A DNA stretch of 64,000 bases from NCBI GenBank assembly GCA_035621235.1, contig CP141731.1, positions 1,798,001 through 1,862,000 on the forward strand, given 5' to 3'. Below the pieces are notes generated by a model. The model was not told the DNA's origin. It did not search any database and saw only the letters and a list, made by a program, of their open reading frames with translations. Below are positions 1,178-62,448 of the stretch, one piece after another. Position numbers and translations under genes: made by a program. Source of the stretch: Actinomycetaceae bacterium MB13-C1-2. Lineage in GTDB: Bacteria > Actinomycetota > Actinomycetes > Actinomycetales > Actinomycetaceae. The stretch's first letter is position 1. Each line of letters starts with the position of its first letter.

Positions 1178-1533
1178 GGCTTGGGGTTCGCCGCGCTGGT
1201 TTGGTGGGATTCGCCTTTTTCTTAGAACCGGCATCCGCTTTCTTCTTTGGACCGGAGTCAGCTTCGTATTTCACCGCGTCTGTTTTGTCTGATTCGTTTT
1301 CTTTTTGGGTTCGTACCGATTGCTATTTCACCGGGTTTGTTGAGCGGACTCAACCTCTTCCTTGGACCAGTATCCGGTTGGTATTTGACCGGGTGTGTTG
1401 TGCGGATTCAGCCTCTTCCTTGGACCAGTGTTCGGTTGGTACTTGGCCAGGTTTGCTTTGCGGATTCAGCCTCCACTTTGAGTTAGCGCCAAGTCGGACT
1501 ACGGTTTCCTTACCCGGTATTTGGGAGGAAACC
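1178..1533. other. 356-bp gap before nrdR, mostly degenerate repeat
   Basis: No convincing gene. An open frame continuous with nrdR exists but encodes Phe/Ser-rich repeat sequence with no ribosome binding site at its start. Most of the gap is a degenerate 58-bp tandem repeat. The nrdR promoter presumably lies here, but I could not pick a good one. Confidence 0.6.
1229..1482. repeat. Degenerate 58-bp tandem repeat, about 4.4 copies
   Basis: Units start near 1229, 1287, 1345, 1403 and 1461 (partial). The copies at 1345 and 1403 are closest to each other, sharing CTCTTCCTTGGACCAGT and CGGTTGGTA. The copies at 1229 and 1287 are more diverged but keep the phase (TATTTCACCG and similar at the same offset). 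The plus strand is T-rich. Confidence 0.7.
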
Positions 1534-2004
1534 TTGCGCTGCCCCTTTTGTCAGCATGACGACACTCGTGTAGTCGACACCCGTGTTACCGACGACGGCA
1601 CCACTATCCGCCGTCGTCGTGAATGCAGTGAGTGCCATGGGCGCTTCACAACTACTGAGACTGCGAGCTTCTCGGTCGAGAAACGATCTGGTGTAGTCGA
1701 GCCATTCTCACGAGACAAGATCACCACCGGAGTTCGCAAAGCCTGTCAGGGGCGCCCGGTCTCGGAACGGGAACTGGCATATCTCGCTCATCAGGTCGAG
1801 GATGCCCTAAGAGCCACCGGACAGGCTACCGTCTCGGCTGACGAGGTTGGCAAAGCTATCCTGCCGTTTCTTCGTCAGCTCGACGAGGTCGCCTATCTGC
1901 GCTTTGCGTCGGTTTACTCGTCATTCCAGTCCCTCGATGATTTTGATCTGGCAATCGCTGAGCTTCGCGCAGATCAGACCCGGGAGGATTCCACGGCAGG
2001 CTAG
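1534..2004 (+). CDS. nrdR: Transcriptional regulator NrdR
   Basis: Repressor of ribonucleotide reductase genes that senses ATP/dATP. 156 residues, normal for the family (about 150-160). Seen: an N-terminal zinc ribbon (RCPFC at residues 2-6, ECSECHGRF near 31) followed by an ATP-cone (residues about 46-140, with [10 protein letters not shown] and [11 protein letters not shown]). The start is a TTG at 1534-1536: GGGAGGAA lies just upstream and the next residues RCPFC are the invariant NrdR N terminus. The same frame stays open far upstream, but that part is repeat-encoded. NrdR follows the LysM gene as in mycobacteria. Identification is secure; the TTG start is well supported. Confidence 0.95.
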
Positions 2005-2040
2005 AAGTCGTGAGACTTCTTCCGGTGGTGACAGCTACCG

Positions 2041-2230
2041 TGTGAACCAGTCTGTCCTTTACCGGACCTGCTGGTTTCGGGCCGAGTCCGCTCTTTTGGC
2101 GGCTTTACCGCTGTTCTGGCCCGGTTCGTTCTTCTGCGCTGGACCCGGTCTGAAGCTAGTTTGGCTTTCTGCCGGTTTGCTACAGTTCTGGCCCGGGTTT
2201 GTTCTTCTGCGCTGGACTCGGTCGCTGTTG
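2041..2230. repeat. Degenerate 72-bp tandem repeat between nrdR and the acyl-CoA ligase gene
   Basis: GTTCTGGCCCGG at 2113 and at 2185 head two 72-bp-spaced copies that share TTCTTCTGCGCTGGAC; a weaker copy precedes them from about 2041. Motifs (CTTCT..TGGACC, GGTTCG) resemble the 58-bp repeat on the other side of nrdR. This fills most of the 228-bp convergent gap. Confidence 0.6.
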
Positions 2231-2232
2231 AA

Positions 2233-4182
2233 CTAGTCTGCGTCCGTAGAGTGCTCAATCTCCGTCGTTTCTTCACGCTGCTCGCTGGTTACCTCAGACT
2301 CATGTTCCTCAATGAGGTCCGAGTCATCCGTGCCGGCCGAGGCCTGCTTGATGAACTCGGTGGCCTTCGATCCAAGCCCAGAGGCAATGTCCGAGGTGGC
2401 GGCTGCCGCGCTCGCAAGAGATTCCTTTGCTGCCGTCGTGGCTTGTCCTGCCCGTTCCGCCAGATCAGAAACCTGTTCCGCCACCGCAGCCAGACCGACC
2501 TTCATGCCGTCCTGAATGTCGCTGATTTGCCGCTGGACACGGCGTCTCATGACTTTACCTATCTGGGACTTCGGAAGCTCTTGAACGACGACAATCTGCC
2601 TGGGAAGAGCGTAGTGTGCCAGAGACTTCTCGGCCCACTCGCGAACGTCGGCAAGCGAAATCGAGGCGCCGGCCTCAAGAACCAGAGCGGCGACAACGTC
2701 CTCGCCCGAATTCTTTCCGCTCGGCATTCCGACCACGGCAACGTCTTCAATGCCTGGCATAGATCGAACGGCGTCCTCTACCTGGCTGGGGTAGATGTTG
2801 AAGCCCCCGGAGATAATTAGCTCTTTGCGACGGTCTGCCATGTAGATAAAGCCGTCACGAATCTGGACCAGGTCGCCGGTGTGAAGCCAGCCATCCTTGA
2901 GGACTTCGGCTGTCTCTTCAGAATTCTCCCAATAGCCTCCAAAAACCTGCGGTCCTCGTGCCAGAAGCTCACCAATTTCACCTGCGGGGACATCCACCTC
3001 GGTGTTTTCGGGATCGACAATTCGCACCTCGGTCGAGGGGAAGGGGACTCCCAGAGCACCGGCCCTTTTGAGAGGTGAGACGGGTGAGCCGAGCAAAATC
3101 GGAGACGCCTCACTCATCCCATAGCCCTCGATCATTAGGCCACCGGTCGCTTGCTCCCAACGCTCCATCAGTTCCTGGCTAAGAGGCATCGCCCCGGACA
3201 GCGAGAACGTCATCGAAGTCATGTCTACGGGAATGTTCTCTAGCTCGGCAAGAAGACGATCGAACATTGGAGGTACTCCCAAGAAGAAAGTACAGGGTAG
3301 ACGTCGCTGTGACAGCAGTATCTGGGACGGATCGAACTTAGGGAAGACAGCGATTGTAGCTGCAAGGCGTAGACCAGCGAGTAGTGAGATCGTGAGGCCG
3401 AATGCATGGAAATAGGGAAGCACTGAGTAGAACACCTCGGCGCCCTCGTGAAGCGGAGGAACCCAGGCGACCGACTGATACACGTTTGAGCAGAGATTCT
3501 TGTGGGTCAGGGCCACTGCCTTCGGAACCCCGGTGGTTCCGCCTGTGTGAATAAGCAACGCGACCTGGTCAGCAGCTGAGGGGCAAGTGCCATTCCAAGG
3601 CTTCGCGTTGCTTACGGTCTTGTTCCATGAAACAACCGTTTTTGGAACCTTAGCTCCGAGTTGGTTCTTCCGCTCGCGAATGGACTTGAGAGGAATCTTC
3701 AGTAGAGCGCGGCTGGTGGCCGAGAGATCGTGGGCCAGATTTACCCCGTAGACGCGTTTGCTAGCGTCCAGGAAGTCCATATTCGTTATGGCCTTCTCCC
3801 AGGCAACAACCACGTTCGCCCCGTGCCGTTCAAACTCGTGTCGCAGTTCCTCTGCCGGCGCGAGAGGATTGTGCTCAACAACGATTCCACCGATCAGGGT
3901 CGTAGCGAACAGGGCAACGATATGTTGAGGGCAGTTAGGCATTACGAGCGCCACGCGATCGCCAGGCTTGACCCCGGCCTCGCTTAGTACCGTTGCTGCT
4001 TTAAATACCTGTTGTACGAGGTCCTCGTACGAGGTTTGTTGCGCCAGGAAATCGAGCGCAACCCGCTTCGGGTAAAGCTTTGCCGAGTCGAATAACAGAT
4101 CAATAAGGCGCCGGTCGCCAGAATCGGTCCGATATGGAACCCCCGGTGCGTACTCGGTCCTAAGTTCGTCAGTTAGCGACAT
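2233..4182 (-). CDS. Long-chain fatty acid--CoA ligase (AMP-binding, FadD-like)
   Basis: Adenylate-forming enzyme activating a fatty acid to acyl-CoA, cytoplasmic or membrane-associated. 649 residues. Seen: P-loop-like TGGTTGVPK (213-221), YGMSEASP (354-361), WLHTGD (about 432-437), hinge DRRKELIISGGFNIYP (about 450-465), and catalytic-lysine motif PKSQIGKVMRR (K543). Beyond residue about 555 there is a tail of about 95 residues, first Ala-rich and helical-looking, then very acidic (DDSDLIEEHESEVTSEQ), absent from ordinary FadD proteins. ATG 4182 (MSLTDEL) has GAGGGAG upstream; a TTG 24 bases earlier is less likely. Substrate chain length cannot be told from sequence. The gene is convergent with nrdR and upstream of nothing on its strand, so it is probably monocistronic. 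Confidence 0.9.
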   Translation of the reverse strand: MSLTDELRTEYAPGVPYRTDSGDRRLIDLLFDSAKLYPKRVALDFLAQQTSYEDLVQQVFKAATVLSEAGVKPGDRVALVMPNCPQHIVALFATTLIGGIVVEHNPLAPAEELRHEFERHGANVVVAWEKAITNMDFLDASKRVYGVNLAHDLSATSRALLKIPLKSIRERKNQLGAKVPKTVVSWNKTVSNAKPWNGTCPSAADQVALLIHTGGTTGVPKAVALTHKNLCSNVYQSVAWVPPLHEGAEVFYSVLPYFHAFGLTISLLAGLRLAATIAVFPKFDPSQILLSQRRLPCTFFLGVPPMFDRLLAELENIPVDMTSMTFSLSGAMPLSQELMERWEQATGGLMIEGYGMSEASPILLGSPVSPLKRAGALGVPFPSTEVRIVDPENTEVDVPAGEIGELLARGPQVFGGYWENSEETAEVLKDGWLHTGDLVQIRDGFIYMADRRKELIISGGFNIYPSQVEDAVRSMPGIEDVAVVGMPSGKNSGEDVVAALVLEAGASISLADVREWAEKSLAHYALPRQIVVVQELPKSQIGKVMRRRVQRQISDIQDGMKVGLAAVAEQVSDLAERAGQATTAAKESLASAAAATSDIASGLGSKATEFIKQASAGTDDSDLIEEHESEVTSEQREETTEIEHSTDAD

Positions 4183-4239
4183 CGTTGCCCACTCCCTCGC
4201 CGTCAAAGCTTGCCGGTCTCAGTCTAGGGTGCGTCTTCG

Positions 4240-5451
4240 TCACATTTGCAGGTTCAGGCACCGAGCCGAGACATTTGCGTTTGAGAGCTTAAGCCGTTCC
4301 AGAACTAGAGGGGGCAATGGAGTGGACACATCTGTTATCGCGTAACCTAGTGAGCCCATCGTCGCTAGGCCCTGCCCCTCAACATTGATGTGCGTTGATG
4401 CTAATGCTTCGTTCAGATGAGCCATCACGCCGGGAATGTTGTGGTGCATGAATGTGAGACGGGCAGCGGAAGAGGGAGTGACCGGAAGCGACAGGTTCGG
4501 CACGTTCACGGCCATTGACGTGTTGCCAAGAGTCAGATAGTCAATGAGCTTCTGCGCGACAAAAGCTCCGATATCGTGTTGCGCCTCAATGGTGGAACCC
4601 CCGATGTGCGGAGTAAGAATGACGTTGTCCATTCCCTGAAGCTCAGAGTCAAATGGGTCTCCCGTCTCCTTTGGTTCCTCTGGAAAGACATCCACTGCCG
4701 CGCCGATAAGGTGACCTGAGTCGAGTGCTTCCTTTAGGGCAACCTGATCCACCACGAAACCCCGGGACAGGTTGACCAGAACGGAACCGGGTTTCATCGT
4801 CGCCAGTTCCTCGGCGCCGATCAGGTTCTTGTTGGCGGGATTCCCATTGACGTGAATTGAGACCACGTCGCTTCTTCGCAGCATGTCAGCCATGGACGAG
4901 GCCTTCTCAGCATTACCCAGCGCGAGCTTTTCCTCAATGTCGAAGAAGAGCACTCGCATGCCCATGGCTTCGGCAAGGACCGAGAGCTGCGTACCGATGT
5001 TTCCGTACCCAAGGATGCCTAAGGTGCGTCCCCGAACCTCGTGTGCATTGGCCGCCGTCTTGTCCCACCGCCCTTTGTGCAGTTTCGAGTTCTTGACCGT
5101 GAGACGACGGGTGAGGGCAATGATTTCGCCAACTGCCAGCTCAACGACAGATCGTGTGTTGGCATACGGGGCGTTGAAGACGGGTACTCCTCGCTCAGCA
5201 GCTGCCCCAAGGGCTACCTGGTTGGTGCCGATGCAAAACGCCCCGATCGCCTCCAAAGACGGACTGTGCGCTAAGACTTTGGTCGTCACTTCCGTCTTTG
5301 ATCGGATACCGAGGATCTGGACCCCATCGAGAGCATCGATAAGTTCGTTCTCGTCTAGGCCGCCCTTGACTACGCGGACATTAAGTCCTGCCGACTCAAG
5401 GATCTCGGAGGCAATCTGGTGTGGGTTCTCAAGCAAAAGTACGTTGGTCAC
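4240..5451 (-). CDS. serA: D-3-phosphoglycerate dehydrogenase (short, ACT-type)
   Basis: First step of serine synthesis: 3-phosphoglycerate to 3-phosphohydroxypyruvate with NAD. 403 residues. Seen: nucleotide fold GILGYGNIGTQ (145-155), catalytic Arg in NLSRG (R230), Glu in PEEPKE (E259) and His in TPHIGGST (H282), then a C-terminal ACT domain (about 330-403, HHNIPGVMAHLNEAL) for serine feedback. This is the short E. coli-like layout; many actinobacteria carry a SerA of about 530 residues with an extra ASB domain before ACT. GTG start at 5449-5451, with AAGGA about 10 bases upstream. It is transcribed away from helD with a 42-bp gap, so co-transcription with helD is likely. Confidence 0.93.
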   Translation of the reverse strand: MTNVLLLENPHQIASEILESAGLNVRVVKGGLDENELIDALDGVQILGIRSKTEVTTKVLAHSPSLEAIGAFCIGTNQVALGAAAERGVPVFNAPYANTRSVVELAVGEIIALTRRLTVKNSKLHKGRWDKTAANAHEVRGRTLGILGYGNIGTQLSVLAEAMGMRVLFFDIEEKLALGNAEKASSMADMLRRSDVVSIHVNGNPANKNLIGAEELATMKPGSVLVNLSRGFVVDQVALKEALDSGHLIGAAVDVFPEEPKETGDPFDSELQGMDNVILTPHIGGSTIEAQHDIGAFVAQKLIDYLTLGNTSMAVNVPNLSLPVTPSSAARLTFMHHNIPGVMAHLNEALASTHINVEGQGLATMGSLGYAITDVSTPLPPLVLERLKLSNANVSARCLNLQM

Positions 5452-5493
5452 GGCCCAATGTTCCTTCTTTTGGGGTTTTCGCGTCGCCTGGTT

Positions 5494-7752
5494 TCACCTG
5501 GTGGAGTCGAGGGCCCGCTTCCAAGCCGCTGGCAGGTCTCTAGTTCTGACGGAGTGCAGACGTCTTGTTGAACGCGTCATAGCCACAAATAGGTCTCCCG
5601 CGCCGCCCGCCGCAATCTCGTCGGGCTCGACAATGACTGTTACATCAAACTCCAGGCCCTTAGCCCCGACAACGCGAAGCAAACTGACGCGCTGGTCGAG
5701 AGCGGTGTCGCCCTTAGAGTCGGCTGCCCACATCCGCCCGCGTTCGTCGGAGACCAGGACGCCAATTCGGCCGCTTCCGGGTCCGACCTCAAGGTCCAGC
5801 TTTTCTATTTCCTCGTCCACCACGCGCTGTACCGCCTCCCAGAGGAGATCATCGGAAGGACGCTCGGAGGCGGAGTGAACCTCAATATGGGTGTCCGCCA
5901 GGGCATCGGGTACGTCTCGCGCGGAGGTCAGTGGGAACAGCACCGGATGACCGAGTTCTTCCATCACGGACTGTGCTACCCGTGTGATGGTCTCAGGCGT
6001 GCGGTAGGAGATAGTGAGAACGAACTCTTCTGACAGGCCTCGGGCGGCAGGTCCCAGTGCCTGATACCAGGAAGAAGGCCGGTGGTGTCCGCGCGCCTGG
6101 TCAAGGTCTCCAACAACTGTGAATGATCGGGAGGGGCAGCGGCGCAATAGCGTGTGCCATGCCATGGGGGTGAGGTCTTGTGCCTCGTCAACGACAATGT
6201 GTCCATAGCTCCAGGTGCGATCAGCTAGCGCACGTTCTGCCAGCGGAGCCCATTCTCTCGGTCCTCGTACATGCTGAGCTAGCATTTCAGCGCTCACGAT
6301 TCCGCCGCCCAGATGCTGGCCCTCCATCGCAGTCCTGACCCGCTCTAACTCTTCTTCCTCGCGCCTGCTCTGGGCAGTCGACTCTGAGTTTGCGATGGCT
6401 TCTGAAGTGCCGAGTAGTTCCTCAAGCTCGTCCAAAAGGGGCACGTCAGAGATAGTGATCGGGGAGTCCGACGAACGAGAGACCAGTTCAATGTCCGACG
6501 GAGTTAGACCTCTTGCAACCCGGCGAAGGGTTTCTGGATGTGAGTACAGACGACGGAGCAGGCCGATGGCACTGGTCGGCATCCAACAGAGATTTATCTC
6601 TCGTCTGATGTCACGTTCGCCCCTGACGGATTCCCTCCACCAATCGAGTGTTTCGGGGTCCGCATCGCTCCCGGCCAACTGCTTAGAGAGTGCATCGACT
6701 AGCTCCAGCGCGAAACCATCGCGGGCAACATTGTGGGGCCGACCGGTTCTGCGCGCCCTAGTTCTCGCGTCACGGACCATCTGTGGGCTCAGATGTGCTT
6801 CGCGTCCATCGATGGTGAAGTGCTTGGTTTCGGCGGGAATACGTTGTAGGTCACGCACGGCCGCTCGAAGGGTCTGGGTCCATTCAATCTTGCCCTTAGC
6901 ATGGGCAACTTCGGAGGTGTCTGTGATGTCTGTGCTTATTCCCGGCACCAGTGACCCCATGGTCACGGAAACAACGCCTGCCTCACCCAGCGAAGGTAGA
7001 ACCTGTTCGATATAGCGGAGGAAAACCCGTGAAGGCCCTACAACCAGAACCCCGGAGCGCTCCAGGCGCTCTCTATGGGTGTAGAGCAGGTAGGCGGCAC
7101 GGTGGAGGGCGACAGCGGTCTTTCCAGTTCCCGGTCCTCCCTGAACAACCATGATCCCGTTTCCGTCTGCTCGGATGATGGAATCTTGCTCTGCCTGAAT
7201 GGTCGCAACAATGTCACTCATTCGCCCGTCACGGGCCGAAGCGAGAGCCGACATTAGGGCGCCCTCGCCTTGGAACTGCAATCCTTGTCCCGCCGCGGCC
7301 TGGGCATCGAGAACGTCGTCTTCGATCCCTCGAACCTTGCGGAGGTGGGTGGCTATGTGACGCCTTCGAACAACGTCTCCCGGTTCCGCGGCTGTTGCCT
7401 GATAGAAGGGTCGAGCTGCCGGGGCACGCCAATCGACCAGCAGTCGTCCGCCATCAGAATCGGGAAGCCCCGCCCGCCCGATGTAGTGACTGGACCGGTC
7501 ATTCATGTCGATGCGACCAAAGACCAGTCGATCCTCAATCTGCTCTAGACGCGATGCCTGATCCCCGAAGTGGGCTGCCTTTGCGTCTCTTTCCGTCCGT
7601 GCCTGGGGAGTTCCGTAGCCGCCCTGCGACTCGACTTCGCGCTGGGAGCGTCGATACTCCGTACGCAGGCGTTCAAGTACTTCGTATGCCTGATCAACGA
7701 AACGTTGCTCCCTGGCGATATCGGCCTCGAAATCCTGCGGGGACTCACTCAT
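5494..7752 (-). CDS. helD: HelD-like RNA polymerase-associated helicase (UvrD superfamily)
   Basis: Superfamily 1 helicase-like ATPase, 752 residues. Seen: an N-terminal charged coiled-coil region (about 8-80, rich in Arg/Glu), Walker A GGPGTGKT (205-212), DEAQD motif II near residue 520 (VVDEAQDLTPMAWHTLL), GDLDQ motif III shortly after, and C-terminal motifs VVGAKGLEFDVTVIV and FVAMTRSTRRLH. Known: actinobacterial (class II) HelD uses its coiled-coil arms to clear stalled RNA polymerase. The N-terminal arm and the gene length fit HelD better than UvrD or PcrA. ATG 7752 is preceded by GGGAAAGG. Exact subclass is inferred. Confidence 0.85.
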   Translation of the reverse strand: MSESPQDFEADIAREQRFVDQAYEVLERLRTEYRRSQREVESQGGYGTPQARTERDAKAAHFGDQASRLEQIEDRLVFGRIDMNDRSSHYIGRAGLPDSDGGRLLVDWRAPAARPFYQATAAEPGDVVRRRHIATHLRKVRGIEDDVLDAQAAAGQGLQFQGEGALMSALASARDGRMSDIVATIQAEQDSIIRADGNGIMVVQGGPGTGKTAVALHRAAYLLYTHRERLERSGVLVVGPSRVFLRYIEQVLPSLGEAGVVSVTMGSLVPGISTDITDTSEVAHAKGKIEWTQTLRAAVRDLQRIPAETKHFTIDGREAHLSPQMVRDARTRARRTGRPHNVARDGFALELVDALSKQLAGSDADPETLDWWRESVRGERDIRREINLCWMPTSAIGLLRRLYSHPETLRRVARGLTPSDIELVSRSSDSPITISDVPLLDELEELLGTSEAIANSESTAQSRREEEELERVRTAMEGQHLGGGIVSAEMLAQHVRGPREWAPLAERALADRTWSYGHIVVDEAQDLTPMAWHTLLRRCPSRSFTVVGDLDQARGHHRPSSWYQALGPAARGLSEEFVLTISYRTPETITRVAQSVMEELGHPVLFPLTSARDVPDALADTHIEVHSASERPSDDLLWEAVQRVVDEEIEKLDLEVGPGSGRIGVLVSDERGRMWAADSKGDTALDQRVSLLRVVGAKGLEFDVTVIVEPDEIAAGGAGDLFVAMTRSTRRLHSVRTRDLPAAWKRALDSTR

Positions 7753-45195: not shown

Positions 45196-46176
45196 ATGAG
45201 CGAACCCGGACTAGAAGTAGCCCCTAACGGGGTTGATCGCCCGCTGATTTCCCGAGTAAACGCGATGGTTCTTGGTGGAATAATCGTCGCTTTGGTTCTA
45301 GTCGGGAGCTTTTGGGACCTGCAGATATCCGAGTTACTCTTTGACCCAACTGTGCTCTCGGATCCTAGGCACGCCAATGTTTTCGGCGTGTTTGGCGCCG
45401 CGTTCGGCGAGGTTCCTTTGGGCCTGGCAATGGTCACCGCCGGGACGCTGTTCATTGCTTACAGAGAGCGAAACAGGACGTGGACGATGATCCTCCAGTT
45501 GGTTGGAGGAATACTGCTGTTTTTGGTAGGAACGCTGCTAGTAATGTACTTGCCGTCGAGGTATCTGCCTATATCGCTTGTTGCTACGACCATAATCGGA
45601 GCGGTGATAGTCGTTGCTGTCACGTGGGGTGTTCTGAAGTTAGCATCCGGGGCCGATGGAAAACTGGCACTCCGCGTCGCTCTGGTCCTGTTCGTGGTGG
45701 CGGTGGTTGAACTCGTCCTAGTCAATGTGATCAAGATCGGTTGGGAGCGTCCCCGGATGAGAATGCTTGAGGAAATGGCCGGGGAAGGAATCGATGGTCT
45801 CGGTTTCAACTCCTGGTGGCAGATCGGAGATGCCGCTAAGGCTGAAGTAACCGGTACCGGGCTGATCGAACACGAGGAGTTCAAATCCTTCCCGTCGGGG
45901 CACACGGCTAACGCGGCACTGCTAATAATGCTGACTGTTCTCCCCGTTTTGCGCCCCGCTCTGGAGAAATGGAAGGGAGCGTTCTTCTGGATTGGGGCTG
46001 TATGGGCGTTCATGGTTGCGTTCTCCCGAATGGTTATGGGCGCTCATTTTCTGACCGACACTATGTTCGGACTGACGGTGACGTTCATAACGATCCTGGT
46101 CGTGTACCGGCTTGTTTTTCCTAATGGCTTGACCACCGATATCGAGTCACTGCCAGACCGTCCGAGAAAGGTGTGA
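45196..46176 (+). CDS. PAP2-family membrane phosphatase
   Basis: 326-residue membrane protein with about six to seven membrane segments and the three-part phosphatidic-acid-phosphatase site: KIGWERPRM, FPSGHTAN and SRMVMGAHFLTD (catalytic His residues in the last two). Likely dephosphorylates an isoprenoid or phospholipid substrate on the outer face; which one is unknown. ATG 45196 follows AGAGGGGATCTCC. Only 4 bases separate it from the first GH3 gene, so the three genes 45196-51410 look like one operon. Confidence 0.88.
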   Translation: MSEPGLEVAPNGVDRPLISRVNAMVLGGIIVALVLVGSFWDLQISELLFDPTVLSDPRHANVFGVFGAAFGEVPLGLAMVTAGTLFIAYRERNRTWTMILQLVGGILLFLVGTLLVMYLPSRYLPISLVATTIIGAVIVVAVTWGVLKLASGADGKLALRVALVLFVVAVVELVLVNVIKIGWERPRMRMLEEMAGEGIDGLGFNSWWQIGDAAKAEVTGTGLIEHEEFKSFPSGHTANAALLIMLTVLPVLRPALEKWKGAFFWIGAVWAFMVAFSRMVMGAHFLTDTMFGLTVTFITILVVYRLVFPNGLTTDIESLPDRPRKV

Positions 46177-46180
46177 GCGC

Positions 46181-48628
46181 GTGAGCACAACCGTTAGCCA
46201 TCCCGACCTAATCGATCAGATGACTCTCGACGAGAAGGCGGCGCTGATGTCCGGGGCCAACTTCTGGAACACGAAGAGCATCGACCGACTGGACATTCCG
46301 TCGATCATGCTCACCGATGGACCACACGGTCTGCGAAAGCAAGCGGGTGCGGCCGACCATCTCGGACTAAACGCGTCCGTCCCGGCGACGTGTTTCCCGA
46401 CCGCTGCGACGTTAGCGAACACTTGGGATCGCGATCTACTGTTCGAAATTGGAGCAGCACTGGGAGCTGAGGCGGCAGCCGAAAACGTTAGTGTTCTTCT
46501 AGGCCCCGGCATGAACATCAAGCGCAACCCGCTTGGAGGAAGAAACTTCGAGTACTTTTCTGAGGATCCGTTGCTGTCGGGTGAACTCGCTGCGGCATTC
46601 GTAATGGGGGTGCAGTCTAAGGGTGTCGGCGCGTCGGTTAAGCACTTCGCAGTTAACAGTCAGGAAACGCACCGGATGAGTGTTGACGAGGTGGTCGATA
46701 CCCGCGCACTCCACGAAATCTATCTTGAGGGCTTCCGCATAGCGATTGAGAAAGCCAAGCCCTACACGGTCATGTCAGCGTACAACCGAGTGAACGGGGA
46801 GTACGCGAACGAGAGCCAGGAACTAATGACTGATGTCCTCCGCAACCGGTGGGGTTACAAGGGCCTCGTGGTAACCGACTGGGGTGGAAGTAACGACCGA
46901 GTGGCTGGAATCCTGGCGAGCAATGCACTTGAGATGCCGTCGACGGGCGGAATCACGGACGCGGAGATTGTCGATGCCGTAAAGACGGGAGCCTTGGACG
47001 AAAGAATCCTTGATCAGCGAGTCGACGAGCTCCTGACTCTTATTGATCGCACAGCGACCGCCCGCATACCTGGCGTTGCTCCCGACCTTGAAACAAACCA
47101 CGTCCTTGCTGAGCAGGGCGCGCTGGAGGGGCTAGTTCTTCTAAAGAACCACGACGGAGCGTTGCCACTCAAACCGGGGATCCGCGTTGCCGTTGTCGGT
47201 GAGTTTGCGCAGAAAATCCGGATTCAGGGCGCTGGAAGTTCTCTGGTGAATCCAACTCGGGATACTTCGCCGCTCGAAGAAATGGAGGCGGCCGGAGTCA
47301 ACGTGATCGGATTCGCCCCCGGTTATAGGCGACACGGTGGCTGGTCGCAGCGCATGAGAGAAGAAGCAAACCAGTTGGCTAGGCGAGCGGACCGGGTTAT
47401 TTTCTTCGCCGGGCTCGACGAATCAAGTGAGGGCGAATGCGCTGATAGGCGTCACATGCACCTCCCGAAGAATCAGTTGATTCTGCTACGAGATCTGATT
47501 CGTGCCGGTCATAGGATTACCGTGGTTCTAGTTGGGGGATCGCCAGTCGAACTGCCGTTTGAGCCAGCCGTCGACTCCATCCTTGGCGGCTATCTCTCGG
47601 GGCAGGGCGCGGCTCACGCTATCGCCCAGGTACTGATGGGAAAGTCAAACCCTAGTGGACACTTGGCGGAGACCTGGCCCCTGACGTACGAAGACGTGCC
47701 CTCGTCGAGCGACTTTGGCTTGGGCGAAACCACGCAGGAGCACCGCGAGAGCATCTACGTCGGCTATCGCTACTATGACAAGGTCCAAGCGCCCGTCAGA
47801 TACTGCTTCGGGCACGGCCTGAGTTACACCTCGTTTACCTTTACCGACATGGTTGCAGATAGTGAGGGGGCGACGGTGAGCGTGCAGAACACCGGTGATC
47901 GAGACGGTGCCGAAGTGGTGCAGGTATACCTTCGTCCCCCAACGGAACTAGGTTTTGTAGCGCCTCAGTCACTTCAGGGCTTCATTAGAATTCGTCTTGC
48001 AGCGGGAGAGACGAAGACGGTTCAGATTCCTTTCGCCGAACACGCGTTTGATGTTTTTGACGTTGCGGGGGACGACTGGCGTCGGATCGGAGGGACGTAC
48101 GAGGTTCTGATCGGGTCTTCCTCACGAGACATTCGATTGCGAACGACCATCGAGGTCAAGGGCGAGGAAGCTAAGCTCCCGTATGAACCTTCGGCTCTGT
48201 CCAGTTACTACTCAGGGTGGGTGAAGAGGGCTTCAGACCAGGAGTTTGCCACGCTGCTTGGTCGAGAACTCCCCGAGCTCCACTGGGATCGGACAGCTCC
48301 TTTGAACAGGTTGAGCATTCTGGCCGAAACGAAGGGGCGAGGAGGACTGGCCAGCGGTGTGCACGGTCTGTTGTCCGCCACCCAGAAGGCCCTCGGAGTA
48401 GCGGGGCGCCCCATCGATGCCAATCAGATCAATTTCGCGTTGGATTTACCTTTGCGGAACCTTCCGAGATTCTCTGCTGGGGCGTTCAGTGAGGCGGCAC
48501 TCGATGTGCTACTAGATGCTCTCAACGGTGAGTGGCGACGGGTTTTTGCACGCGCTCGCAACCTGCCAAAGCGACTGAAGACCAGATCAAGTTCAAGGAC
48601 CCAAGAAATGGGCACAAGCGAAAGATAG
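46181..48628 (+). CDS. GH3 beta-glycosidase (standard domain order, cytoplasmic)
   Basis: 815 residues, no signal peptide or membrane segment. Seen: GH3 N-terminal barrel (about 10-285) with LTDGPHGLR, GPGMNIKRNPLGGRNFEYFSE in two parts, KHFAVNSQETHR and the nucleophile D233 in VVTDWGG; GH3 C-terminal domain (about 305-515) with candidate acid/base E417 in SSEGECADR; a FnIII-like domain (about 560-660); then a C-terminal part of about 150 residues I cannot name. Likely a beta-glucosidase or beta-xylosidase; sugar preference is not readable. GTG start at 46181. It precedes a second, permuted GH3 gene by 4 bases. Confidence 0.92.
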   Translation: MSTTVSHPDLIDQMTLDEKAALMSGANFWNTKSIDRLDIPSIMLTDGPHGLRKQAGAADHLGLNASVPATCFPTAATLANTWDRDLLFEIGAALGAEAAAENVSVLLGPGMNIKRNPLGGRNFEYFSEDPLLSGELAAAFVMGVQSKGVGASVKHFAVNSQETHRMSVDEVVDTRALHEIYLEGFRIAIEKAKPYTVMSAYNRVNGEYANESQELMTDVLRNRWGYKGLVVTDWGGSNDRVAGILASNALEMPSTGGITDAEIVDAVKTGALDERILDQRVDELLTLIDRTATARIPGVAPDLETNHVLAEQGALEGLVLLKNHDGALPLKPGIRVAVVGEFAQKIRIQGAGSSLVNPTRDTSPLEEMEAAGVNVIGFAPGYRRHGGWSQRMREEANQLARRADRVIFFAGLDESSEGECADRRHMHLPKNQLILLRDLIRAGHRITVVLVGGSPVELPFEPAVDSILGGYLSGQGAAHAIAQVLMGKSNPSGHLAETWPLTYEDVPSSSDFGLGETTQEHRESIYVGYRYYDKVQAPVRYCFGHGLSYTSFTFTDMVADSEGATVSVQNTGDRDGAEVVQVYLRPPTELGFVAPQSLQGFIRIRLAAGETKTVQIPFAEHAFDVFDVAGDDWRRIGGTYEVLIGSSSRDIRLRTTIEVKGEEAKLPYEPSALSSYYSGWVKRASDQEFATLLGRELPELHWDRTAPLNRLSILAETKGRGGLASGVHGLLSATQKALGVAGRPIDANQINFALDLPLRNLPRFSAGAFSEAALDVLLDALNGEWRRVFARARNLPKRLKTRSSSRTQEMGTSER

Positions 48629-48632
48629 TGCG

Positions 48633-51410
48633 TTGACAGACCAAGCAGAGATTCCCGAATCGGCTGGATCAGTATCCGAGTCTGTGAGGCGGAGTCGCAA
48701 AGAGATAAAGCGTGACGCAGTAGCGGCCGCGCGAGAAGAAAAAGACGCAAGGATAGCGATTAAGGCGTTGCCTCCAAAAGAGCGTAAGGCAGCGGAGAAC
48801 GCAGCAAAAGAAACCAACAAGCGAGAAAAGACGGCGCGGCAAGCGGCACGAAAGCAAATGCCTCGTTCTGAGCGGAAAGCGGACAAACGCGAAGCTCGCA
48901 TTTTCCGCAAGGTTGCGCATCGTCGTCGTAGAGCAGTCGGATGGGGAATTGTTGCAGTCGTAGTGGTGGGAGTAGCAGTGGCCGCCGCCCCCTACGTGTC
49001 GGACATCAGGCGCCTGTTCAGCATTACTGCCAACTCAGAAACTGCTGAAGGGCAGGCCGCGCGTGAAGCGGGAATGCGGGTTGCGAATCAGGTCTCGGAC
49101 GAGGGACTTGTGCTACTAAAGAACGATGGTGACCTGCTGCCGGTCCGAGATGGAAAGATTAACGTCTTCGGTTTCGCCTCGTTCAATGTGCGCTACGGCG
49201 GCGGCGGGTCGGGCGGAGCTGATCTCTCACAGGCCGTTAACCTATATGACGCTCTTCAAGGTGCCGGTATCGAATACAACCCGGAGCTGTTCAAGACGAT
49301 GCAGGACAACGGAGCCTCGCTCAACACGGCTAACTCCACCGGATTGGTCCAGGTCGTAAAGTCGTTCGTCCTGCCGACCAAGGAAGATGAAAAAGCCCCG
49401 ACGTACCTGACGGATGAAGTCATGGAACAGGCGGCTCAATTCTCAGATGTTGCTCTGGTGGTGATTGGAAACGATGGGGTTGAGGCTCAAGACTTCGCTC
49501 CCGAACAACTGCGACTTACCCAGGTTCAGCGTGACCTGCTTGATCGCATTTCTTCTAAGTTCGAGAACATCGTTGTCATCATTAACTCTGGTAATCAGAT
49601 GGAACTTGGGTTTCTCGACGAGTACCCGCAGATCAAGAGTGCCTTATGGATTGGTACCCCCGGTCCGTTCGGCACGGTCTCACTGGCGGATACGCTCGCA
49701 GGAGATATCAACCCATCAGGACGCCTGAGCAACACGTACGCATACGACGTCGAGACGGCCCCTGCAACCGTCAATTTCGGTGACTACAAGTACGAGAACG
49801 CCAAGCGGGCATTCCTCAACTACCAAGAGGGGATCTACGTCGGATACCGCTATTACGAAACACGGTATGAGGCGGACGAGGCCGGGTACCAACAGGCGGT
49901 TCAGTTCCCGTTTGGCTATGGTTTGAGTTACACAGACTTCGAATGGAAGGTCTCAGAGCCGGTTATTGACGCAGATCAGATTGCGATTGTTGTCGAAGTG
50001 ACCAACAGCGGCAGCCGCGCGGGGAAGGACGTTGTTCAGGTCTACTACACCCCACCATGGAGCGAGGGTGGAATCGAGAAGTCCTCGAAGAACCTGGTGG
50101 CGTACCAGAAGACCTCTGAGATTGCCCCTGGAGACACCGAAACGGTGAAGTTGGTGTTCCCAGTGCGCGACATGTCCTCGTGGGACGAGTCTGGCGGCGG
50201 AGGATACGTACTTGATGCCGGAGGTTACAAGATCCACGTGAGTAGCGACGCTCACAACTCCGTTGCCGCGTTCGACTATGTCGTTCCTACGAGGGTCGAG
50301 TATCGACAAGACGAGGTAACGGGCACGGAGCTTATGAACCTGTTCCCCTATGCGCACGGTGATTTTTCCTATCTATCACGCGGTGACTGGGAGGGCACGT
50401 ATCCAAATCCCGACGACAGGAACTATGTCGCAAGTCAAGAGTTACTGGATGCCATGTTCCCAAAGGATATTCCGGCCGAGGGAGAACTCCCGATCTACGG
50501 TGCGGACAACGGGATCATGCTCGCTGATCTCAAGGGTCTTTCCTTCAATGACGCCAAGTGGGATCTGTTCCTTGACCAACTTACTAAGGAGGAGCAGGTC
50601 AATCTGTTCTCCCGTGGTGGTTGGAAGACTGAGTCGGTGGATCGACTGGGAATTCCCTCCACCGTACTGCTCGATGGGCCAGCGGGTCTCAACTCATTCT
50701 TCAGCAACGTGACTGCAGCGTCGTATCCGACAGCGGCAACAGTGGCGTCGACCTGGAATGACGAACTGGCCCAGACCATCGGTGACGCGGTCGGTGAGGA
50801 AGCAAACGCCTACGGAGTTCAGGGATGGTACGCGCCGGGGATGAACATCCAGCGAAGCGCACTTGGCGGACGCAACTTCGAGTACTACTCTGAGGACCCG
50901 CTTCTGTCAGGCAAGATGGGTGCCGCAATGGTGCGCGGAGCAGAGAATCAGGGCATCGTCACGTTCATGAAGCACTTTGTGCTGAACGATCAGGAAATCA
51001 ATGCGCGGAGCGGCGTTAATGTCTTCGCGAACGAGCAGGCAATGCGTGAGCTCTATCTACGTCCCTTCGAAATCACGGTTAAGGAGGGCGGCGGGACAGG
51101 CGCAATGTCCTCATTCATCCATATCGGTCCAATTTGGTCCGGCGGCAACTCCCAGCTATTGCAAGACCTGTTGCGGGAGCAGTGGGGATTTGAGGGTGTA
51201 GTTTCGACCGATGCGGTTCTTGGCGGGTTCATGAACCCCACATTTGCAGCGCTGAATGGAAACGACCTGATGCTTTCGGCAATGGGTAGTGCCACAGCGA
51301 AGACCACGATGAACGCGGTCAACCACGATCCGGTCGGTGTTGGGAATGCCCTGCGTGAACGAGTTCACCAAATCTGTTACATGGTTTTGGAATCGAACTT
51401 GTTTGACTAG
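48633..51410 (+). CDS. Membrane-anchored GH3 glycosidase with circularly permuted domain order
   Basis: 925 residues. Order seen: a very charged Lys/Arg/Ala-rich cytoplasmic region (1-100), one membrane segment (about 101-120), then the GH3 C-terminal domain first (about 145-400, beginning VSDEGLVLLKND and including GDINPSGRLSNTYAYD), FnIII-like domain (about 440-550), and last the GH3 catalytic barrel (about 636-910): LLDGPAGLN, YAPGMNIQRSALGGRNFEYY, KHFVLNDQE and nucleophile-position D860 in VVSTDAVLGG. Ordinary GH3 proteins run barrel, C-domain, FnIII, as does the gene just upstream. Type II topology would put the enzyme outside. TTG start at 48633. The stop codon lies in the flank of a MITE-like element. 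Confidence 0.88.
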   Translation: MTDQAEIPESAGSVSESVRRSRKEIKRDAVAAAREEKDARIAIKALPPKERKAAENAAKETNKREKTARQAARKQMPRSERKADKREARIFRKVAHRRRRAVGWGIVAVVVVGVAVAAAPYVSDIRRLFSITANSETAEGQAAREAGMRVANQVSDEGLVLLKNDGDLLPVRDGKINVFGFASFNVRYGGGGSGGADLSQAVNLYDALQGAGIEYNPELFKTMQDNGASLNTANSTGLVQVVKSFVLPTKEDEKAPTYLTDEVMEQAAQFSDVALVVIGNDGVEAQDFAPEQLRLTQVQRDLLDRISSKFENIVVIINSGNQMELGFLDEYPQIKSALWIGTPGPFGTVSLADTLAGDINPSGRLSNTYAYDVETAPATVNFGDYKYENAKRAFLNYQEGIYVGYRYYETRYEADEAGYQQAVQFPFGYGLSYTDFEWKVSEPVIDADQIAIVVEVTNSGSRAGKDVVQVYYTPPWSEGGIEKSSKNLVAYQKTSEIAPGDTETVKLVFPVRDMSSWDESGGGGYVLDAGGYKIHVSSDAHNSVAAFDYVVPTRVEYRQDEVTGTELMNLFPYAHGDFSYLSRGDWEGTYPNPDDRNYVASQELLDAMFPKDIPAEGELPIYGADNGIMLADLKGLSFNDAKWDLFLDQLTKEEQVNLFSRGGWKTESVDRLGIPSTVLLDGPAGLNSFFSNVTAASYPTAATVASTWNDELAQTIGDAVGEEANAYGVQGWYAPGMNIQRSALGGRNFEYYSEDPLLSGKMGAAMVRGAENQGIVTFMKHFVLNDQEINARSGVNVFANEQAMRELYLRPFEITVKEGGGTGAMSSFIHIGPIWSGGNSQLLQDLLREQWGFEGVVSTDAVLGGFMNPTFAALNGNDLMLSAMGSATAKTTMNAVNHDPVGVGNALRERVHQICYMVLESNLFD

Positions 51411-58529: not shown

Positions 58530-58630
58530 GCACAGACGGCCGATTTGTATATTGCGGGGCAGGCATCATTCGGCTTGATCTCCCCGGATGCCGCCCGTAG
58601 CCCGCGACTAGCCTTCCTCCGCATCATCCT

Positions 58631-58658
58631 GCTGGCGTCCAACCCCTTGGACGCCAGC
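58631..58658 (+). terminator. Perfect 12-bp hairpin after the sugar transporter
   Basis: GCTGGCGTCCAA pairs with TTGGACGCCAGC around a CCCC loop. There is no U-run, but it stands between the transporter operon and the ferrochelatase gene. Confidence 0.65.
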
Positions 58659-58727
58659 CTAAAGGCATTAGGCTATGTGGGGTGCAGGGCTACCTGCTAT
58701 GAATTTGGGATGCTTGAGGTGGATTTA

Positions 58728-59732
58728 GTGACGAAGAAACCGGTGGATAAGCCGTGTCTGATTCTGGTGAATCTAGGAAGTCCAGACGAACCAACAACCA
58801 GGTCGGTTAGGAAATACCTCCGAGAGTTTCTCTCTGACCGCCGAGTCGTTGAGACGCATCCCGTGTTGTGGCGTCCCGTCCTTGACGGAATAATCCTGCA
58901 GGTTCGCCCCAAGAAATCTGCCGAGAAGTACGCGATGGTCTGGGGCGAGGTACATCCACCACTGGTTGAGTACACCATTGATCAGGCCGAGGCAGTTCAG
59001 CGCGCCCTAGGGGACACCGCCGAGGTCCGCTACGCGATGCGATATGGAAGTCGCGGCCTGCAGGCCGCTCTTACCAGCGCATACGAGGATGGCTATCGGA
59101 GGGTTGCCGTTTTCCCGCTTTACCCGCAATATTCGGCGTCGTCTCTGGGAACCATTAGTGACGAGGTATTCCGATACGGTCTGAAAGCCCGGGACCAGTT
59201 TGATCTCCGCATCACCCGCTCTTTCCAGACATTCCCGCCGTACATCGAAGCCATGGCAGTGGCTTTGGAACAGTCATGGCAGCAAAACGGGCGTCCGGAC
59301 TTCGCGTCGGGAGACAAGCTCGTCCTGAGCTACCACGGTATTCCTCAGGCGATGGCTCAAAATGGTGATCCGTATCCGGATGAGTGCAACCAGACGACCG
59401 AAGCGCTACGGGTGCGATTGGGTCTTGACGAGTCCGATATCGTGCACGCCTACCAGTCCAAGTTTGGCCCTGCTCCTTGGCTACTCCCGGCAACAATCGA
59501 CACGGTAGGAGCCCTCGGTGCTGGTGGAACCAAAAGGATTGACGTTCTCTGCCCAGGCTTTGTAAGTGACTGCCTCGAGACGCTTGAGGAAATCGAGATG
59601 CTCAATCGTGAGACTTTCGAAGAGGCTGGGGGGCGAGAGTTCAACTACATTCCCTGGGGAAACAACAAGCCGGATTGGCTTGACGCACTTTCCGACCTTT
59701 CCAAGAACGCTCTGGCGGGATGGATTGAGTGA
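58728..59732 (+). CDS. hemH: Ferrochelatase, proteobacterial (protoporphyrin) type
   Basis: Inserts ferrous iron into a porphyrin. 334 residues. Seen: CLILVNLGSPDEPTTRSVRK, AMRYGSRGLQAALTSAYEDG, FPLYPQYSASSLGTISDEV, the active-site His in LSYHGIPQAMAQNGDPYPDEC, YQSKFGPAPWLLPATI, and VLCPGFVSDCLETLEEIEM with the conserved Glu. These match the E. coli HemH pattern (SYHGIP..GD.YP..C), not the coproporphyrin ferrochelatase expected in actinobacteria. GTG 58728 follows GAGGTGG; a longer frame from 58545 is read through the terminator and unlikely. No other haem genes are nearby. It may have been acquired by transfer. Confidence 0.9.
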   Translation: MTKKPVDKPCLILVNLGSPDEPTTRSVRKYLREFLSDRRVVETHPVLWRPVLDGIILQVRPKKSAEKYAMVWGEVHPPLVEYTIDQAEAVQRALGDTAEVRYAMRYGSRGLQAALTSAYEDGYRRVAVFPLYPQYSASSLGTISDEVFRYGLKARDQFDLRITRSFQTFPPYIEAMAVALEQSWQQNGRPDFASGDKLVLSYHGIPQAMAQNGDPYPDECNQTTEALRVRLGLDESDIVHAYQSKFGPAPWLLPATIDTVGALGAGGTKRIDVLCPGFVSDCLETLEEIEMLNRETFEEAGGREFNYIPWGNNKPDWLDALSDLSKNALAGWIE

Positions 59733-59757
59733 TTCCCCTCTTCAAACCGATAATCCA

Positions 59758-59784
59758 CTAAGTTAGGCTTACCTAAGTTATAGT
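59758..59784 (+). promoter_or_regulatory. DtxR/IdeR iron box and -10 for irtA-like gene
   Basis: CTAAGTTAGGCTTACCTAA (59758-59776) matches the iron box TTAGGTTAGCCTAACCTAA at about 15 of 19 positions. A -10 TATAGT follows at 59779-59784. A half-box TTAGGTGAGC (59797-59806) lies just before the start codon. Iron-loaded DtxR would block this promoter. Confidence 0.85.
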
Positions 59785-59808
59785 AATTTTCCTGACTTAG
59801 GTGAGCAT

Positions 59809-62448
59809 TTGAGCGCTAAACAGGCGGCAGCAACGGCTTCGTCAGAAGAAGCCGTTACCACGGAGCACAGGCGGGGTAAACGCGGCTGGGAAGGCGCGAT
59901 GATGCGCTCTTTTGGAGCCGTTGATCACCTGGTTACTGTCACCGGAACCGAGCAGACTGCTCCGCACATTGTCCGCGTTTCAATGTGTTCAAAGACGTTA
60001 CTCGGTGAACTTCCGATCGGTCCCACTAACTGGGTTAGGTTCTGGTTTCCAGATGACAAAGGCTTTGAGCATCAGCGCGCGTACACGCTCATAGATCCTG
60101 ACCCAGAGAGCGGGAAGTTCAGTTGCGACTTTGTGCTCCACACTCCGGCGGGACCCGCAGCCAGTTGGGCTCAGCGTACGAAGCCTGGCGACCGTCTTGA
60201 GGCAATGGTCATGGGATCCCAGCCGTTTGAAGTCTCGGTTGATACTCCCGCCGGATACCTGCTGGCCGGTGACACAGCCTCGTTGCCTGCCATCAATCAG
60301 ATTCTTTCCACGATCCCGGAGCACGTGCCGGTCGAGGTCTACCTCGAACAACACGAGCCGGGCGATCTTGAACTCCCCATAACTACTCATCCAAAGGCAT
60401 CGATTCACTGGATTCCAAGGAATGGAACAAGCTCGCTGACCACCGCAGTAGACTCCCGTGACTGGTCCAATTGGTATGCCTGGATGGCCTCGGAAGCGGG
60501 ATCACTTAAGATGCTCCGTGCGAGTTTGACCGACCGGTTTGGCTTTCCGAAATCTGCCCTATATGGCCGTGCCTACTGGTCCGAGGGAAAGGCAATGGGT
60601 AAAGGGCGTGAGGTTGAACCGAACGGGGCATCCTCCTCCGTAGAAGACTATGGGGCGAAGATCGAGGTAGAAACCCCCACGGTCCTCCCGGAAGGCGAGA
60701 AGGGGCGGTGGAAGTCTCAGGGCGGCACCGAACTACTGAGCCACTTGAAAACAACGTTCTGGATCGCGGGTATCGTTCAGGTATTGGTGACGCTCCTCGA
60801 ACTGGCACCTTTCGTCCTTCTCGCGCACCTCGCGACTCAGATGGCGCAGGGAGACGGCCTCCCGGCGATGCGATCAACCCTGGTCGCCGCAATTCTAACG
60901 ATGCTGGGCGGGACACTATTGGGGATTGCGCTGATGTTCTGGCTCCATTTGGTGGATGCGAAGTTTGAGCGGGACCTGCGTTCTCGACTGCTTACGAAGT
61001 TTGTGCATCTGCCGCTCAGTTGGTTCTCTTCCCGGAACTCTGCAAAGGTAAAACGACTGGTTCAAGACGACCCCCTCTCGCTTCACTACCTGGTAACCCA
61101 CGCGGTTCCGGATGCCGTGGCGGCGGTTGTAGCCCCTCTCATGGTGCTGGTCTATCTATTTGTTGTCCAGTGGCGACTAGCTCTGCTACTGCTAATCCCA
61201 GTTCTGGTCTACCTCGTCATCATGTACGTCATGCTTGTGGTTTCTTCGGAGAAGACGCCGCAGTCGGTGAAGTGGGCCGAGGCAATGGACGGTGAGGCGG
61301 CCGCGTACATCGAAGCGCAACCGGTAGTTCGTGTTTTTGGAGGAGCGAAACGTTCCTCGTTCAACCGGCGACTTGGCGAGTATGTGCGTTTCCTCGGAGA
61401 TTGGCAGCGTCCGTTCTCGTCAAAGAAGGCGCTGATGGATATCGCCACTCGTCCAGCTACCTTCCTCTTGATCATCGTGGTGTTTGGTACCTGGCTAATC
61501 ACCTCTGGGAAGATGCCCGCGGGCGAGATATTGCCTTTCCTCCTGCTAGGTACAACTTTCGGTTCGCGCCTGCTCGGTCTTGGATACGGGCTTGGAGGAC
61601 TACGCGACGGTATGGAGGCGGCGCGGCGGATCAAGAACGAACTGGATCAGCCTGAACTCGAGTTGCGTGAGTCAGTTCCAATGCTGCTTAGCTCGGATAG
61701 CCCCAAGATTTCGCTAAAGAATGTCAGTTTTGAATACGAGGTTGGGGTGCCGGTTCTATCAGACGTCAACCTTGAAATCGAGCCTGGAACGACAGTTGCC
61801 CTGGTCGGACCGTCGGGTTCTGGCAAGTCCACGCTGGCTTCTCTTATCGCCAGATTCAATGATCCGACATCCGGTTCTATTGCGCTGGACGGTACGGACT
61901 TACGCGACATCACATCCGATGATCTGTATCGAACCGTTGGTTTCGTCTTCCAGGACCCGGGACTGGTCAGTGGCACCGCCTTCGAGAACATCGCGTTGGC
62001 AAAGCCCGAGGCAGAACATGACTCGGTAGAAGGCGCCGCCAAGGCTGCCCAAATCCACGAACGAATTGAAGCTATGCCCGGTGGATACCAAATCAAGTTC
62101 GGTCAAGCACCACCGCTTTCTGGCGGCGAGAAACAGCGCGTTGCAATTGCTCGCGCCCTTCTTGCTGACACCCCGATCTTGGTTTTGGACGAGGCGACCG
62201 CCTTCGCGGATCCTGAATCCGAGTACCAGGTGCAGCGTGCGATCAATAAGTTGACTGCGGGTCGAACCGTCATTGTCATTGCTCACCGACTTCAGACCAT
62301 TGCGGGTGCTGACCGCATAGTGGTCATGGACAGGGGAGAAATTATCGAGTCAGGAGATCACGGAGAGCTTTTGAACCTCGGGGGTAAGTACGCCCAGATG
62401 TGGGATGTCGCCAAGCATTCGGCCGATCAAGAAGGGCCGCGAAAATGA
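59809..62448 (+). CDS. Siderophore importer subunit with FAD-binding reductase domain (IrtA-like)
   Basis: 879 residues. Seen: an N-terminal siderophore-interacting (FAD) domain (about 35-265) with HQRAYTLIDPDP and GYLLAGDTASLPAINQ; ABC exporter-type membrane domain (about 310-590, six segments); ATPase with Walker A GPSGSGKST (about 666-674), signature LSGGEKQR (about 770) and VLDEATAFADPES. This is the IrtA plan: import of ferric siderophore by an exporter-fold ABC dimer, with iron reduced by the fused domain on the cytoplasmic side. TTG 59809 follows TTAGGTGAGC; the site overlaps the iron half-box. Overlaps irtB-like by ATGA. Also loosely like YbtP. Siderophore type is unknown. Confidence 0.9.
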   Translation: MSAKQAAATASSEEAVTTEHRRGKRGWEGAMMRSFGAVDHLVTVTGTEQTAPHIVRVSMCSKTLLGELPIGPTNWVRFWFPDDKGFEHQRAYTLIDPDPESGKFSCDFVLHTPAGPAASWAQRTKPGDRLEAMVMGSQPFEVSVDTPAGYLLAGDTASLPAINQILSTIPEHVPVEVYLEQHEPGDLELPITTHPKASIHWIPRNGTSSLTTAVDSRDWSNWYAWMASEAGSLKMLRASLTDRFGFPKSALYGRAYWSEGKAMGKGREVEPNGASSSVEDYGAKIEVETPTVLPEGEKGRWKSQGGTELLSHLKTTFWIAGIVQVLVTLLELAPFVLLAHLATQMAQGDGLPAMRSTLVAAILTMLGGTLLGIALMFWLHLVDAKFERDLRSRLLTKFVHLPLSWFSSRNSAKVKRLVQDDPLSLHYLVTHAVPDAVAAVVAPLMVLVYLFVVQWRLALLLLIPVLVYLVIMYVMLVVSSEKTPQSVKWAEAMDGEAAAYIEAQPVVRVFGGAKRSSFNRRLGEYVRFLGDWQRPFSSKKALMDIATRPATFLLIIVVFGTWLITSGKMPAGEILPFLLLGTTFGSRLLGLGYGLGGLRDGMEAARRIKNELDQPELELRESVPMLLSSDSPKISLKNVSFEYEVGVPVLSDVNLEIEPGTTVALVGPSGSGKSTLASLIARFNDPTSGSIALDGTDLRDITSDDLYRTVGFVFQDPGLVSGTAFENIALAKPEAEHDSVEGAAKAAQIHERIEAMPGGYQIKFGQAPPLSGGEKQRVAIARALLADTPILVLDEATAFADPESEYQVQRAINKLTAGRTVIVIAHRLQTIAGADRIVVMDRGEIIESGDHGELLNLGGKYAQMWDVAKHSADQEGPRK

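Follow-up and report, generated by a model that had tools for sequence, protein, structure and literature searches.

A 64,000-nucleotide window of the Actinomycetaceae bacterium MB13-C1-2 genome (contig CP141731.1, positions 1,798,001 to 1,862,000 of the forward strand) encodes, at window positions 48633-51410, a protein in which a charged tail and one transmembrane window are followed by a circularly permuted glycoside hydrolase family 3 (GH3) enzyme. On balance, and with moderate confidence, this protein is read here as a membrane-tethered, outward-facing permuted GH3 exo-glycosidase of altered sugar specificity that works with a cytosolic GH3 enzyme encoded by the adjoining gene. The permutation itself is ruled out as a novelty, having already been described (PMC5104943, PMC11233000). 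What appears from sequence comparison to be new is a rare tailed clade with alanine at the position of a sugar-stacking tryptophan and with a conserved gene partner. No description of this clade, its alanine or its gene company was found among the open-licence literature matches listed. By the same comparisons the case seems more notable than a first-pass annotation of this DNA had claimed, since the tail marks a clade in two phyla and goes together with an active-site change and a conserved partner gene.

Permuted GH3 enzymes form a known subfamily, defined by GlyA1 in 2016 (PMC5104943). Pfam matches to the 48633-51410 protein run GH3_C, Fn3-like, GH3_N (Table 1), which is the alpha/beta-sandwich, fibronectin-like domain, alpha/beta-barrel (ABS-FLD-ABB) order of the GlyA1-type subfamily. 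An AlphaFold model of residues 133-925, built from 27 alignment rows, reached a predicted local distance difference test score (pLDDT) of 76.1, with 125 of 793 residues below 50, and a predicted template modelling score (pTM) of 0.84. This model aligned end to end with two solved permuted enzymes, 5wug (Z 38.3, root-mean-square deviation 3.0, 704 residues) and 5k6o (Z 32.0, deviation 3.1, 708 residues); standard-order GH3 structures, among the 50 matches listed, aligned through either the barrel or the sandwich side alone (VIA-align 2). The same six permuted GH3 entries took the top ranks in Foldseek. The first-pass annotation had given the order as C-domain, FnIII and barrel and had noted that some permuted GH3 enzymes are known; both statements hold, the first by Pfam order and fold, the second by the existence of a described subfamily with solved structures. 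The model depicts one complete GH3 fold, and the contrary possibility, two GH3 fragments unable to assemble an active site, was rejected on the whole-length match to solved permuted enzymes (704-708 of the 793 modelled residues). An earlier model of the full-length protein, built from nine rows, was poor (pLDDT 50.3, pTM 0.35) and was taken only as a hint of helices in the tail, at residues 22-44, 48-74 and 78-95 (pLDDT there about 58-75).

The catalytic residues of the subfamily are retained. In GlyA1, Glu143 is the acid/base, Asp709 is the nucleophile, and glucose stacks on Trp710 (PMC5104943). Glu284 and Asp860 of the 48633-51410 protein align with the first two (both by alignment to 5k6l), placing the predicted acid/base in the sandwich and the predicted nucleophile in the barrel, as is characteristic of permuted GH3 enzymes. 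The GlyA1 pocket residues Asp532, Arg597, Lys630, His631 and Arg641 correspond to D681, R747, K780, H781 and R792, the last by direct alignment to 5wug, the alignment to 5k6l being off by one residue there. These five residues, together with E284, D287 and D860, are invariant in 13/13 tailed proteins. A dead enzyme was judged unlikely given that both catalytic residues are kept throughout. The GlyA1 pair of Trp710 and Tyr677 is absent, being replaced by Ala861 and Phe828 in all 13. Alanine after the nucleophile separates the tailed proteins (13/13) from the other permuted GH3 proteins examined (0/9; Phe in five, Tyr in two, Trp in one and Met in one), and phenylalanine in place of Tyr677 is also found in 6/9 of those others. 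Solved GH3 xylosidases carry tyrosine (7zb3) or cysteine (7vc6) at the Trp710 place, and the loss of the stacking tryptophan therefore points away from a plain beta-glucosidase. Subsite -1 would probably accept a sugar other than plain beta-glucose, such as a pentose or a substituted sugar.

Hydropathy analysis gave one window above 1.6 in the whole protein, at residues 101-119. Net charge in the tailed proteins is +16 to +25 for the tail and -46 to -79 for the region after the transmembrane segment. By the positive-inside rule the basic side of a transmembrane segment stays in the cytoplasm, and a basic tail with an acidic domain beyond the membrane fits a predicted tail-in, enzyme-out topology. 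Cysteines after the segment number 0-1 in 13/13 tailed proteins, against 3-6 in the 12 partner proteins described below, as would be expected for exported versus cytosolic proteins. Hydropathy, charge and cysteine counts together suggest type II topology, in support of the membrane anchor named in the first-pass annotation.

The tails of the 13 proteins are 85-93 residues long, the tail starts of L025 and of the 48633-51410 protein being chosen rather than fixed. For the latter, two starts are retained. TTG 48633 is kept because it lies only 4 bases past the stop of the partner gene, and GTG 48684 is a good alternative because two of three same-family relatives (L024, L026) have no in-frame start upstream of the equivalent of residue 18; the third, L025, has two GTG codons there. 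The high charge of the predicted 100-residue tail was confirmed, and its length depends on the start, being 85 residues from GTG 48684 or about 102 from TTG 48633. Sites resembling promoters or terminators did not exceed the number found in shuffled sequence.

The [LM]PxxER motif occurs twice in the tail, at residues 46 and 76, a spacing of 30 residues; the pair is also clear in L026 and is approximate or single in the other tailed proteins. Between four actinobacterial and eight Bacilli proteins, the tail is 33 percent identical on average, compared with 48 percent for the sandwich, 52 for the FnIII domain, 42 for the linker and 55 for the barrel. Local alignment of the tail with 7 of the 12 relatives, compared with 2000 same-composition shuffles, gave z scores of 3.5-14.6. 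The weakest alignment, with L083, was reached by 10/2000 shuffles, and the other six by 0/2000, which argues for a likeness of the tails beyond composition. A search with the first member against Pfam yielded no family at its cut-off and no signalling domain, and the tail profile had no match in the PDB; scattered Pfam matches at E 0.001-1, shared by at most 4/11 members, were taken as chance. The profile matched one protein of its own genome, the 48633-51410 product (E 1.1e-37, not an independent value, this protein being a row of the profile, A2).

A search for the same architecture, suggested in the first-pass annotation, found 12 relatives with the same tail in two phyla plus a contig titled Bacteroidales. 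The 13 proteins (four from Actinomycetota, eight from Bacilli and the one on that contig) occupy one side of a single branch with support 100/99 in a tree of the catalytic region, built by maximum likelihood from 21 rows (L031, L060b and L029 on long branches), and the 48633-51410 protein belongs to them by both its profile A2 tail and this branch. L064, left out of the tree as frame-broken, is a third permuted GH3 gene of the same genome (C1 1008000-1027900, about 2925-6048), apparently with its start in a 172-residue frame and the remainder in an overlapping frame of 885 residues.

The tail is rare. At a profile threshold of E 1e-8 it was found in 4/213 genomes of its own family, in 1/396 drawn from its own phylum (its own genome), in 3/398 sampled from the class to which the Metabacillus genome G060 belongs and 2/80 of that genome's family (G060 included in both), in 1/345 sampled from the class of a Bacteroidales metagenome-assembled genome (that genome itself), and in 0/341 sampled from the class of a Clostridia metagenome-assembled genome, a set holding no positive control. 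The profile was built from most of these sequences, whose own E-values are not independent. Scanning of named genomes for close relatives gave seven with the tail (L053-L059) and one without (L060). The Bacteroidales protein, L053, lies on a 3.9-kb contig titled Bacteroidales UBA9300 and, as the sole tailed protein among 345 genomes of the class, may reside on a foreign contig. L060, an open reading frame through 304-3054 in the Clostridia assembly, is a second permuted GH3 with serine aligned at the acid/base position and is possibly inactive. A same-genus genome (G004, C34 169156-170729) holds only short GH3-barrel frames of 346 and 191 residues resembling the 48633-51410 protein, perhaps remnants. 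Two scans of viral contigs returned a single full-length GH3 and a partial one; L085 (4001-6556), a permuted GH3 carried by an IMG/VR contig of 20 kb, matches residues 142-922 only and has no tail.

A GH3 gene of standard order adjoins the tailed gene, as the first-pass annotation had stated and Pfam bears out for 46181-48628. Whole standard-order GH3 genes adjoin 12/13 tailed genes, and L053 adjoins a fragment fitting one at the contig edge. The 12 whole partners form one clade (Shimodaira-Hasegawa-like approximate likelihood ratio test, SH-aLRT, 99) that splits into the same four and eight, from which it appears that the pair stayed together despite differing gene order. This tree was a quick one with SH-aLRT support only, set among previously collected loci; L003, L007 and L040 were dropped, five other rows were less than half filled, and L016 and the fragment partner of L053 were left out. 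None of the 12 partners has a hydropathy window near the N-terminus, and the 46181-48628 protein is likely cytosolic by its sequence. The best NCBIfam model for the partners of the window and of L054 is exo-alpha-(1->6)-L-arabinopyranosidase, for which they score 696 and 748 bits where the cut-off is 1300; all eight NCBIfam matches fell below curated cut-offs, and no partner activity is assigned on this account.

In the proposed mechanism, the chain would begin inside the cell with the basic helical tail, cross the membrane once, and place a complete sandwich-FnIII-barrel enzyme outside. Glu284 and Asp860 would release a terminal sugar through the retaining mechanism typical of GH3 enzymes, with Ala861, in place of the glucose-stacking tryptophan, probably shifting the sugar accepted at subsite -1 away from plain beta-glucose, for instance towards a pentose or substituted sugar. 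The products would enter the cell, where the standard-order GH3 from the neighbouring gene would finish their breakdown. The tail may hold something at the inner face of the membrane, the first guess being the partner GH3 and the second anionic lipid; docking of the partner is conjecture. Many Gram-positive bacteria must link glycan cutting outside to sugar use inside, and a rare clade whose tethered enzyme retains a long conserved cytoplasmic tail and a dedicated, probably intracellular sister enzyme offers a definite example on which such a link can be tested.

Several observations weigh against this proposal. The specificity shift is judged from a single residue, and the tyrosine-to-phenylalanine change, common to 6/9 other permuted GH3 proteins, carries no weight as evidence. 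Pairing is not special to the tailed clade, as three other permuted GH3 genes (L013, L027, L028) also adjoin a standard GH3. Gene order is opposite in the two phyla, the partner lying upstream of the tailed gene in the window, L061, L062 and L063 (and also in L053) and downstream in 8/8 Bacilli loci. An internal hydropathy window at 1.62-1.88 is present in 3/12 partners. The inside partner envisaged in the first-pass annotation would fit the pairing, yet no result ties the tail to it, and the partners do not exceed other standard GH3 proteins in acidity, leaving electrostatic docking on specially acidic partners unsupported.

The strongest competing explanation, which retains a substantial though lesser share of the probability, is that the tail is a topology or retention device only, a polybasic helix that fixes the N-terminus on the inside and adheres to anionic lipid without a protein partner. 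High net positive charge beside the transmembrane segment would suit this role, as would partners of ordinary acidity. The tail profile also gave a weak match (E 1e-4) to L071 (1363-2370), an unrelated, by appearance thioredoxin-like membrane protein from the same order, in which a short basic helix precedes a transmembrane segment; the tail, too, may therefore only set topology or bind lipid. This match likewise counts against a partner-binding tail. A second weak match, L072, is given no interpretation. A length of 85-93 residues, however, exceeds what topology should need, the tail is conserved in both sequence and length from one phylum to the other, and several members carry the two motifs at a spacing of 30 residues. 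Of the other permuted GH3 proteins examined, 6/9 also have hydropathy windows near the two ends, yet no further tail-profile match was found in their genomes. Membrane tethering is thus not special to the tailed clade, and the 48633-51410 protein is less unusual in this respect than the first-pass annotation had it. Were the tail only a topology device, the protein would still be a pocket variant, with alanine after the nucleophile, in a structurally known subfamily.

It is unlikely, though worth weighing, that the enzyme acts not on nutrients but on glycans of the cell's envelope. A PAP2 gene stands upstream of the pair in 3/4 actinobacterial loci (the window and the same-genus relatives L061 and L062), and the 4-base gaps between the PAP2, standard GH3 and permuted GH3 genes of the window suggest one operon. 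Other permuted/standard GH3 pairs point the same way: L065 (4933-11083) adjoins a GtrA-like gene, and the pair in L066 (7248-16956) is followed by a GtrA match below threshold, a glycosyltransferase of family 2, a response regulator of LytTR type and a GHKL kinase. Set against this, no PAP2 gene was found among five further upstream genes scanned in the Bacilli loci, which were scanned in part. The gene directly upstream in 8/8 Bacilli loci encodes instead an AraC-type helix-turn-helix protein, fused in 6/8 to a C-terminal GH39 domain; the other two align at 22-23 percent with the AraC-GH39 protein of L054, the Metabacillus litoralis relative. Solved beta-xylosidases match the GH39 portion of the L054 protein, 2bs9 most closely (E 5e-81), which suits nutrient use.

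Two further schemes involve these regulators. One is a hydrolase-receptor, in which an outer GH3 with a reshaped pocket would be coupled through one transmembrane segment to a conserved helical tail that recruits or regulates a dedicated cytosolic GH3, with AraC-GH39 joining in Bacilli. This is speculative and given little probability, but would mean, if true, a physical coupling across the membrane between cutting outside and processing inside. The other, improbable, scheme is a sensor whose outer GH3 binds a glycan, perhaps cutting it slowly, while the tail reports inside, to the AraC-GH39 regulator in Bacilli. The altered subsite -1, the conserved cytoplasmic tail and the upstream AraC-type gene of the Bacilli would agree with sensing. 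Both catalytic residues are nevertheless kept in 13/13, the tail contains no signalling domain found by Pfam, and an AraC-GH39 fusion could sense sugar alone. A partial scan of the genes flanking the four actinobacterial pairs found no AraC match, the regulators nearby being of TetR type in L061 and WhiB type in L063. A Sec signal has nothing like an N-region of 85 residues, and an ordinary secreted permuted beta-glucosidase with a cleaved signal peptide is very improbable, the Ala-X-Ala at the end of the hydrophobic segment that would speak for it occurring in the 48633-51410 protein alone and at that place in none of 12 relatives.

Table 1. Positions in the window of the tailed GH3 gene, its domains and key residues, and the two genes upstream.
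Feature	Position	Strand	Basis or remark
PAP2-superfamily membrane protein gene	45196..46176	+	PF01569 E 9.5e-21; ends 4 bases before standard-order GH3 gene
Partner, standard-order GH3 (GH3_N barrel, GH3_C, Fn3-like), 815 amino acids, 3 Cys	46181..48628	+	Pfam; no hydropathy window
Tailed permuted GH3 gene	48633..51410	+	complete open reading frame; 925 amino acids from TTG 48633; alternative start GTG 48684
Predicted cytoplasmic tail, residues 18-102	48684..48938	+	net +20, 52 percent charged
Single predicted transmembrane segment, hydropathy peak residues 101-119	48933..49007	+	basic flank inside, acidic domain outside (predicted)
GH3 C-domain, (alpha/beta)6 sandwich, residues 159-405	49107..49847	+	PF01915 E 1e-31; fold match
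Glu284, predicted acid/base, aligns with GlyA1 Glu143	49482..49484	+	alignment; identical in 13/13 tailed proteins
FnIII-like domain, residues 466-539	50028..50249	+	PF14310 E 1e-13
GH3 catalytic barrel, about residues 641-925 (Pfam match 660-862)	50553..51407	+	PF00933 E 3e-28; fold match
Phe828 where GlyA1 has Tyr677	51114..51116	+	alignment; Phe also in 6/9 other permuted GH3
Asp860 (predicted nucleophile), then Ala861 where GlyA1 has Trp710	51210..51215	+	alignment

Elsewhere in the window, open reading frames at 58545-62448 resemble what are presumably a ferrochelatase and a siderophore-interacting/ABC-exporter fusion.

Among characterized enzymes, the ruminal beta-glycosidase GlyA1 (5k6l-5k6o) shares with the 48633-51410 protein the sandwich-FnIII-barrel order, the aligned acid/base glutamate and nucleophile aspartate, and most subsite -1 residues. 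It differs in an extra C-terminal domain and in having Trp710 and Tyr677 in place of alanine and phenylalanine, and the word "transmembrane" is absent from its main text (PMC5104943). The Paenibacillus barengoltzii beta-glucosidase (5wug/5wvp) is the best whole-length fold match, with 32 percent identity over the 704 aligned residues. The aligned part begins at residue 27 of 5wug, too early for a comparable tail and anchor, and an extra C-terminal domain again distinguishes this enzyme (PMC11233000). The rumen enzyme BrGH3A is permuted and, like the 48633-51410 protein, has no extra C-terminal domain; with 814 amino acids and no signal peptide, it has been proposed to be intracellular (PMC11233000), unlike the outward-facing placement predicted here. 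Further close counterparts come from the same genome or order: L013, L027, L028, L029 and L030 are permuted and carry a transmembrane window towards the N-terminus. In 4/5 of these a further window lies near the C-terminus, their genomes yield no tail-profile match beyond that of the 48633-51410 protein itself, and phenylalanine or tyrosine follows the nucleophile where the tailed protein has alanine.

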